A DNA stretch of 64,000 nt from Cytophagales bacterium. GTDB taxonomy: Bacteria; Bacteroidota; Bacteroidia; Cytophagales; Cyclobacteriaceae. The notes below the pieces were generated by a model. That model saw only the letters and a list, made by a program, of their open reading frames with translations. It made no database searches and was not told the origin of the DNA. The stretch is from positions 53,119-117,118 of the forward strand of contig JADBYK010000028.1 of NCBI GenBank assembly GCA_020403045.1, written 5' to 3'. The number at the start of each line of letters is the position of its first letter. The stretch's first letter is position 1. A program made the translations under genes and the position numbers. Of the stretch, positions 36,577 to 38,701 are shown piece by piece.

Positions 36577-37650
36577 TTACCCTAGTTTCTCGATCAGGTC
36601 AACCATCCGTTCATACTGTTCTTTGGAGTGTGCCGGGAAATTGGCGAAACGCAATTGTGATTTCTTTTTCTCTCCGTAGCCTTCTCCCGGGTTAAAGCCG
36701 TGCTCAGATAAATAGTTACTGATTCGAACTGAATGTTCACCGCAATCAGCCACTATCACTGTTTTAGACTGCGCTGACTCATCTTTCACAAAAGCAGACA
36801 TCAATGGATGAGCCTTTAGTGCTTGGTACAAGATGGCTGCTTTGTAATCTGTCTCCTGACGAATCTTTTTGATGCCAATTCGAAGGAAATCCTCCACTAC
36901 ACAACTCAGCAAGTAGATGCCGAGCACGTTTGGTGTTTCGCTGGTTTGGTTCTTTAGCGCATTCAGAAGTAGGGTAGGGAGATTGTGGTATGACCCAATG
37001 GAAATGCCTCTTGCCAATAGTGATTCTGCCTTTTCGATGCATCTAGAATTGACAGCCCACACGCCAAGTCCTGCTGGCATGCCGAACCCTTTTTGCACGG
37101 AGAAGAAAAAAGAATCTATTTGAGAATAATCTAAAGCCGCGTAAGGCATAGAGGAGACTGCGTCAACAACAATTAGTGACTCGCTGTTTTTTTCTCGTAC
37201 CTGCCGGATGAATTCATTGGTCACTGACACCCCGGTGCTTGTTTCATTTTGAGTAATCGCAATTAGTTCGGTGCCATAGTCGGAAATTGAGTGTGATGAA
37301 AAATTCTCACCCAGTGGCGCTTCAACTTTTTGTGGTTGCTTTCCCAATTGCTTAGCGATATCAAAATAGCGATTGGAAAAAGCACCATTGACAAGGTGCG
37401 TGGAAGAACTCTCGACCAAGTTTTGTATTGATTTTTCCCAGACTTCAGTAGCTGAGCCAGTAAAAAAAATAAAGTAGTCTGTTGGAATACCCAACAATTC
37501 TTTCAGGCCTTCGGTTGCTTTCTGAAAATAAGATTCAAATGTTTTGCTACGGTGAGAAATAGAGGTAATTCCTTCCTTGAAGGCATGACGTGCATGATCG
37601 GGAATAGTATAAAAAAGCTGTGAGGGCCCCGGAGTGAGATTAATGTTCAT
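36577..37650 (-). CDS. Class V aminotransferase (phosphoserine aminotransferase-like)
   Basis: ORF 36577..37683; start at Met-12 MNINLTPGPSQLFYTIPDHARHAFKEGITSISHRSKTFE; VVDAVSSMPYAALDYSQIDSFFFSVQKGFGMPAGLGVW. Confidence 0.88.
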   Translation of the reverse strand: MNINLTPGPSQLFYTIPDHARHAFKEGITSISHRSKTFESYFQKATEGLKELLGIPTDYFIFFTGSATEVWEKSIQNLVESSSTHLVNGAFSNRYFDIAKQLGKQPQKVEAPLGENFSSHSISDYGTELIAITQNETSTGVSVTNEFIRQVREKNSESLIVVDAVSSMPYAALDYSQIDSFFFSVQKGFGMPAGLGVWAVNSRCIEKAESLLARGISIGSYHNLPTLLLNALKNQTSETPNVLGIYLLSCVVEDFLRIGIKKIRQETDYKAAILYQALKAHPLMSAFVKDESAQSKTVIVADCGEHSVRISNYLSEHGFNPGEGYGEKKKSQLRFANFPAHSKEQYERMVDLIEKLG

Positions 37651-37798
37651 GTTCACGAAATTAAGCTTCAAAGTTAAAATCAAACTCGCTCACTATCACC
37701 ATTTATTTTCTTAATTCGAGTCATGCAGCGAACCGGAGCCGACACCAAGCTGTCTCAGCCGATCTCAGTTGATGAAACAAATAGAATCGCATTATATA

Positions 37799-37829
37799 TT
37801 GAGAAACGGAGAACATTTATGTAATTTTG
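37799..37829 (+). promoter_or_regulatory. Bacteroidota-type promoter: TTG - N20 - TAATTTTG
   Basis: TTG 37799-37801, 20-nt spacer, TAATTTTG 37822-37829; fits TTTG-N19-21-TAnnTTTG. Confidence 0.65.
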
Positions 37830-37835
37830 ATTGAT

Positions 37836-38048
37836 AATTCCCACTTGGATTTGGGACACGTTTGCTGAACCTAACAATTATACAATACCGGGTGAAGCTT
37901 TCGGACAAAATCAGGCCTCAGTCCGCCCAGGCGGATCCTCGCCCAAAAAGCAGGTTAACAGTGGAAGATCGCGACCAGAGAGCAGCCCAAAACTTGTCTT
38001 TTATGGGGTTCAGAAACCTCCACCAAATCCAGTGGGTTTTATTTTTTT
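37836..38048 (+). ncRNA. Putative structured small RNA, ~213 nt, 6S-like architecture
   Basis: CCCAC(37840-37844)/GTGGG(38032-38036); TGGATTTGG(37846-37854)/CCAAATCCA(38023-38031); GTTT(37860-37863)/AAAC(38014-38017); CTGAACC(37865-37871)/GGTTCAG(38007-38013); inner hairpin TCCGCC-CA-GGCGGA (37922-37935); 3' TTTTATTTTTTT; matching promoter upstream; lies between minus-strand genes. Confidence 0.7.
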
Positions 38049-38122
38049 GAAAGAAAGGATCACAAATATTTTCATTCGCCCTTCCATTAGTTTTGTAGAA
38101 AGGTGTTGCTGCCAGACTCAGA

Positions 38123-38701
38123 CTACCTTTGCTTTTCAGTTAGAGGCTTATTCTTCAACATCCATAAACTAGATTTTGCAGACAGCCAACCGCATAATAA
38201 TCCAATAATAGCACCAACTAAAATGTCGGTGGGATAGTGAACGCCCAGGTAAATTCGGGTGTAGGTCATGACGATAGCCCAAATAAAAATAAGACCTACC
38301 CATTTATAGTGCTTTTTCAAGGACAGCCAAATAAAAATAGCCACACCAAAGGTATTGGCAGCATGGCTCGAAGCAAAACCGTATAACCCGCCACGATACC
38401 CATCGACCAAATGAAGCAGGCCTTCAAGTTCTGGTTCATGAGATGGACGTAGCCGCCCAAAGAACGGCTTCATAAAACCAGTGGTGATCCGATCGCAAAG
38501 CAAAATGGTTATGGCTACACCCAGAAGAATCCAGATGCTTGATTTTCCGTAGGTCTTGATCACAAAAAAAATAAGTATTGCATAAAGCGGTGTCCAAAAA
38601 AATGTTTCGGTTGATAAAATCATGACTGTATCTAGAAATGGATTATTCCATCCATTGAGCAACAGAAGCAGCCTTTTATCTAGTTCCAGTAATTCTTCCA
38701 C
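38123..38701 (-). CDS. PAP2-family phosphatase
   Basis: 192 aa; GRLRPSHEP..., YGFASSHAANTFGVAIF, YTRIYLGVHYPTDILVGAIIG. Confidence 0.93.
   Translation of the reverse strand: MEELLELDKRLLLLLNGWNNPFLDTVMILSTETFFWTPLYAILIFFVIKTYGKSSIWILLGVAITILLCDRITTGFMKPFFGRLRPSHEPELEGLLHLVDGYRGGLYGFASSHAANTFGVAIFIWLSLKKHYKWVGLIFIWAIVMTYTRIYLGVHYPTDILVGAIIGLLCGWLSAKSSLWMLKNKPLTEKQR

Follow-up and report, generated by a model that had tools for sequence, protein, structure and literature searches.

A probable 6S RNA in a Cyclobacteriaceae genome, homologous to 6S-Flavo and Bacteroidales-1

The RNA gene and its parts

The window, a 64,000-nt stretch of a Cytophagales contig, contains a gap between two minus-strand genes in which we place, on the plus strand, a gene of about 213 nt for a 6S-like RNA (37836–38048; covariance-model span 37839–38037). 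A class-V aminotransferase gene (36577–37683; Pfam PF00266) lies divergently on one side and a PAP2 phosphatase gene (38123–38701) convergently on the other, which agrees with the initial annotation in that neither neighbour shares the strand of the RNA. The RNA has a single copy in its own genome, and it scores 217.9 bits with R1, a covariance model built from the genus of the window only, with no flavobacteria and no Bacteroidales.

Upstream of the RNA, the sequence TTG-N20-TAATTTTG can be read at 37799–37829, as the initial annotation had it: the -7 box TAATTTTG (37822–37829, plus strand) follows the Bacteroidota consensus TAnnTTTG, and 20 nt separate it from a putative -33 element, TTG (37799–37801, plus strand). 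Among 76 related loci, TAnnTTTG occurs exactly in 39 (2.2 expected from shuffles) and with at most one mismatch in 63 (17.5 expected), most commonly 9 nt before the model start. A TTG lies 18–21 nt before the box in 24 of the 76, so the -33 element is weakly supported. At the other end, the 3′ arm of the closing stem runs directly into the T-tract TTTTATTTTTTT (38037–38048), and the intrinsic terminator is formed with the closing stem itself; at least six T are found in the 10 nt 3′ of the stem in 74 of the 76 loci. The TAnnTTTG box, the closing stem and the T-tract are kept in relatives and the other flanking DNA is not, so that the RNA has conserved promoter and terminator signals of its own, as in the 6S functional class. 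The window RNA is predicted to be transcribed.

All helices listed in the initial annotation were found by direct reading of the sequence. In the outer closing stem, P1 (5′ arm 37840–37854, 3′ arm 38023–38036), CCCAC (37840–37844) pairs with GTGGG (38032–38036) and, past the bulged T37845, TGGATTTGG (37846–37854) pairs with CCAAATCCA (38023–38031). A 5 × 5 internal loop, GACAC (37855–37859) against CTCCA (38018–38022), leads to the inner closing stem P2, a 12-pair helix (5′ arm 37860–37871, 3′ arm 38007–38017) in which GTTT (37860–37863) pairs with AAAC (38014–38017) and, past the bulged G37864, CTGAACC (37865–37871) with GGTTCAG (38007–38013). P2 encloses a central bubble, the 5′ strand of which, UAACA...ACAAUACC (37872–37889), corresponds in the alignment to the beginning of the 6S-Flavo model of Rfam; its 3′ strand, AAACUUGUCUUUUAUGG (37990–38006), contains the motif CYCAAAACUUGUC, conserved in Cyclobacteriaceae and many flavobacteria. 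Further towards the apex are a variable hairpin, TCCGCC-CA-GGCGGA (about 37922–37935), and a small, nearly invariant one, CCUCGCC..GCAGG (37937–37952).

Structure, distribution and homology

The initial annotation had proposed folding, covariation and a search of relatives as checks on this structure. The plus strand between 37830 and 38050 folds to -72.4 kcal/mol, against a shuffle mean of -54.5 (z = -4.05), and none of 200 dinucleotide shuffles is as low. In the genus alignment (A1, n = 28), 97.1% of cells pair in the RNAalifold structure and double changes occur in 21 of 54 pairs, values matched by 0 of 500 shuffles, and shifting the 3′ partners lowers pairing to 30–50%. Much of the covariation sits in P1, with double changes in 10 of 14 pairs, and several inner helices are supported as well, including the variable apical hairpin (5 of 5 pairs). 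P2 is nearly invariant within the genus (9 of 12 pairs constant) and, because it hardly varies, its sequence is constrained beyond pairing; phylum-wide, 9 of its 12 pairs show double changes. The pair counts from two further alignments, A2 and A3, lean towards the model because both were fitted to it, and only A1 is used to argue that the P2 5′ arm is invariant, since A3 was gathered with that motif and would make the argument circular. The inner pair GACAA/TTGTC is nearly invariant, and covariation is therefore neutral on it, giving neither support nor refutation.

A BLAST search with DNA matched 36 of the 37 genus genomes, own included, and 0 of 22 genomes elsewhere in the order; because the DNA matches stop at the genus, BLAST alone would wrongly point to a genus-specific RNA. 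R1 matched 54 of 55 genomes of the family, once per genome, and 14 genomes from four other families of the order, again in single copy each, and absence in other Cytophagales families is no proof of loss because the many-genome searches were strictly filtered. A pattern selected from the genus alignment located cultured carriers, among them Chryseolinea, Chryseotalea, Ohtaekwangia, Chryseosolibacter, Dawidia and Parachryseolinea. The one family genome with no R1 match (G485, family f1) is rated 99% complete, and a loss or an assembly gap is possible there. Two loci (L167, L206) whose records bear the titles uncultured Bacteroides sp. and Chitinophaga sp. are of the Cyclobacteriaceae 6S type; their R1 scores equal those of a Flammeovirgaceae MAG (L151) and of Ohtaekwangia koreensis (L170), and the record names are probably wrong. 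At another relative, a SAM riboswitch (RF00162, 84.7 bits; L087:1316–1432, minus strand) adjoins the 6S locus.

At Rfam gathering cut-offs, no family is found in the window. Models of SRP RNA, RNase P and tmRNA, which the initial annotation had wished to see excluded, give no match up to E = 10 between 37760 and 38090. Once the threshold is relaxed, 6S-Flavo (RF01685) matches best: it aligns end to end at 22.3 bits, far under its gathering cut-off of 85 bits, and in the whole genome that carries the window this locus is its best place. Because this match is weak alone, R1 was tested on 30 loci from an RF01685 search of 249 Bacteroidota genomes. It recovered 27 of the 30 at the same coordinates, with E-values, which are rough, of 2e-10 to 8e-4; the matches are full length (model 1–202, best E 2.4e-10), and over 157 kb R1 gave no match beyond the RF01685 loci except the window's own. 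Homology to RF01685 thus extends over the full model, by way of a model that had been built from the genus only.

The second phylum-specific family, Bacteroidales-1 (RF01693), is described in Rfam as '6S-Bacteroidales RNA suggested', and it is on this description that we assume the B. thetaiotaomicron 6S RNA of PMC7366714 to be a member. Its model has no match in the genome of the window, and Cyclobacteriaceae relatives score 24–35 bits, under the gathering cut-off of 60 bits. Across the 249 genomes, RF01693 matches fall at the same places as those of RF01685 or R1 in 16 of 21 genomes. R2, a covariance model trained on Cyclobacteriaceae and flavobacteria with no Bacteroidales, matches the two genuine RF01693 loci (L091, L092) at full length, also in whole genomes, with rough E-values of 4.9e-11 and 4.4e-9, and R1 matches them more weakly (1.8e-6 and 2.9e-3), so that through R1 and R2 the homology to RF01693 likewise covers the full model. 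Three RF01693 matches lying in other classes (G093, G144, G181) had no R2 support and were disregarded. Since R1 recovers loci of both families and R2 those of RF01693, RF01685, RF01693 and the window RNA are, as judged from covariance models, one homologous RNA family, and the comparison of sequence models shows the window RNA to be a homologue of both 6S-Flavo and Bacteroidales-1. The idea of a 6S-like RNA put forward in the initial annotation is therefore supported by homology, with covariance models in both directions.

The resemblance to 6S-Flavo comprises the same P1 and P2 closing stems, the bubble sequences, a GAG/CUC helix, the T-tract and the single copy. The window RNA differs in its length (about 213 nt, whereas the flavobacterial model spans are about 150–200 nt), in its extra apical hairpins, the small invariant one included, which flavobacterial copies lack, in its location outside the zapA–rny interval, and in having a TAnnTTTG promoter where flavobacterial copies have an upstream motif GTTCTTTA. 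With Bacteroidales-1, the likeness is that R1 and R2 recover its loci and that RF01693 in turn hits Cyclobacteriaceae relatives at the same places; the window locus has no RF01693 match, and the sequences are far apart. The 6S class is described as a rod of about 200 nt with a closing stem, a central bubble and an apical stem (PMC8876501), and the window RNA has this shape; in length and in each of these elements it resembles ssrS of E. coli and 6S-1 of B. subtilis. It has, however, no detectable sequence-model match to canonical 6S: RF00013 matched 0 of 29 genomes of relatives, own included, with controls that gave matches in E. coli, B. subtilis and others, and R2 had no match to ssrS in L233.

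The flavobacterial motif GTTCTTTA is conserved about 10–40 nt upstream of the RNA start at loci L031–L057. The TAnnTTTG box is missing from these loci and present in Cyclobacteriaceae and at the Bacteroidales-1 loci L091 and L092, and the GTTCTTTA loci perhaps have a different promoter type or depend on read-through from zapA.

Gene neighbourhood and the zapA linkage

Both zapA and rny are present at 30 of 30 flavobacterial-type loci (L031–L060), and in all 27 that were measured the order is zapA–RNA–rny, co-oriented, with a median of 42 nt between the end of zapA and the RNA. In E. coli, 41 nt separate zapA from the start of ssrS, which is encoded on the same strand, so the flavobacterial homologues adjoin zapA as E. 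coli ssrS does; the zapAB–ssrS arrangement is typical of beta- and gamma-proteobacteria (PMC7641849), and membership of the 6S class does not require it. In a genome from another class (G246), a weak R2 match (34.8 bits) lies between a ZapA-like gene and rny, a position that therefore supports both the match and the linkage. The zapA–6S linkage is apparently old. A literature text search found no paper on it in Bacteroidota, the survey of Wehner et al. (2014) being outside the scope of that search.

At the window locus, zapA adjacency is absent, and in 70 of 78 related loci the gene upstream of the RNA, and divergent from it, is that of the class-V aminotransferase. The own genome does keep the order zapA–rny, with only about 120 nt between the two genes; a second 6S copy there was tested for and rejected, given the size of this gap and the lack of an R2 match. 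With the RNA placed beside the aminotransferase gene and not in zapA–rny, the 6S gene seems to have been relocated in this lineage.

Proposed function, alternatives and significance

6S RNA is a global regulator that is thought to mimic an open promoter and thereby to hold RNA polymerase in reserve. We consider it likely, with a probability of roughly 0.88, that the window RNA is a Cyclobacteriaceae 6S RNA (ssrS), which would mimic an open promoter, bind the polymerase holoenzyme and be released by synthesis of a pRNA. It would be made from its own Bacteroidota-type promoter and end at the terminator built by its own closing stem. The rod with its central bubble would then mimic an open promoter and bind, as we infer, the primary-sigma RNA polymerase holoenzyme, keeping the bound polymerase off promoters as growth slows. 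Once nucleotides return, the polymerase would use the 6S RNA as a template.

In known 6S RNAs, pRNA synthesis begins on the 5′ side of the central bubble and proceeds into the 5′ strand of P2, which opens, and the freed strand refolds so that the RNA is released (PMC8876501). By analogy with the mechanism in E. coli and B. subtilis, the pRNA of the window RNA would start in the 5′ strand of the bubble (37872–37889) and continue into the P2 5′ arm, from 37871 to the predicted end of the template at about 37860. This short pRNA is predicted to contain 5′-GUUAGGUUCAGC and to be complementary to GCUGAACCUAAC. Its synthesis would open P2, and the freed 3′ strand could fold into a hairpin of its own, aiding release. 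Variation in the genus alignment is lowest in P2 and in the 5′ bubble strand next to it, which is what a pRNA template would call for.

When the P2 5′ arm of the window RNA is blocked in silico, the 3′ strand forms the hairpin GGGGUU-CAGA-AACC.UCC (38004–38022), which excludes P2 and is excluded by it and which may resemble a release hairpin. In the genus alignment, the alternative pair at columns 197/214 is always a standard one (GC 22, AU 5, GU 1, the five A-U coming from similar sequences), and the alternative helix overall gives a modest signal. The 3′ strand folds better than its shuffles (mean z -1.07, -0.81 and -2.14 in three groups) and the 5′ strand no better (z about +0.3). For many flavobacterial RNAs the partner of the freed strand is the 3′ bubble strand, an arrangement also described for E. 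coli 6S RNA. For the window RNA these folding results are suggestive only, and we treat the release hairpin as a candidate.

The initial annotation had also allowed for a new lineage-specific RNA, that is, a structured Cytophagales RNA with its own function that reached the 6S-like rod by convergence. Scores below the Rfam cut-offs, strong sequence conservation inside the genus and a neighbourhood unlike that of ssrS would suit such an RNA, but R1, trained on no flavobacteria, recovers 6S-Flavo loci at their exact places, as R1 and R2, trained on no Bacteroidales, do for Bacteroidales-1 loci, and rods that arose by convergence would not have the CYCAAAACUUGUC bubble motif and the AAC/GUU core in common; this alternative is thus unsupported and very unlikely. 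The homology would leave room for another mode of polymerase binding, to the core and not the holoenzyme, as in the actinobacterial Ms1 RNA, a rod-like RNA that associates with RNA polymerase and binds its core (PMC9130861). The likeness in rod shape and the fact that the Cytophagales RNA is known from sequence alone speak for this mode, yet Ms1 belongs to another phylum, dRNA-seq detected both a 6S RNA and its pRNAs in Bacteroides (PMC7366714), and the low variability of P2 and the 5′ bubble strand is what a pRNA template would require, so we hold core binding to be unlikely.

Neither of two more local explanations has more than a slight chance. A cis element, either a leader or an antisense RNA of an adjoining gene, would account for the adjacency to the aminotransferase gene; that gene is divergent, however, the PAP2 gene is convergent, promoter and terminator signals accompany the RNA itself, and the neighbours differ in other Cyclobacteriaceae genera and in flavobacteria. 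Two open reading frames (37831–38172 and 37862–38050) do exist mechanically, but the median longest open stretch is 36–39 of about 67 codons per frame, any frame is fully open in only 16 of 77 relatives, and compensatory changes track the RNA pairs; with no reading frame conserved among relatives, a small protein gene was rejected.

Reading the window RNA as a 6S RNA fits with what has been reported for its relatives: Weinberg et al. (PMC2864571) assign to 6S-Flavo the function of a class already known, and the F. psychrophilum 6S RNA is expressed (PMC9723704). A broader scenario, tentative and in our view somewhat short of even odds, is that there is one Bacteroidota 6S family, encoded ancestrally directly after zapA in the manner of proteobacterial ssrS, with a linkage that may predate the split of Bacteroidota and Proteobacteria, and that the Cyclobacteriaceae relocated the gene, carry extra apical hairpins and would use a release hairpin built with the internal loop of the closing stem instead of the flavobacterial 3′-bubble hairpin. 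The bridge between the two Rfam families, the zapA linkage in Bacteroidota, the relocation in Cyclobacteriaceae and the candidate release hairpin are possibly new.

Among the 249 Bacteroidota genomes, RF01685 passes its cut-off in 13 and RF01693 in 2; because both phylum-specific models are too narrow, 6S RNA goes unannotated in a large part of the phylum. The Cyclobacteriaceae sequences link the two families and make a single model for the phylum feasible, and their alignment predicts where pRNAs would start. If the zapA linkage in Bacteroidota is ancestral, the association of 6S RNA with a cell-division gene is very ancient. The window RNA itself is probably an ordinary housekeeping regulator, too divergent for the Rfam cut-offs and overlooked by current annotation.
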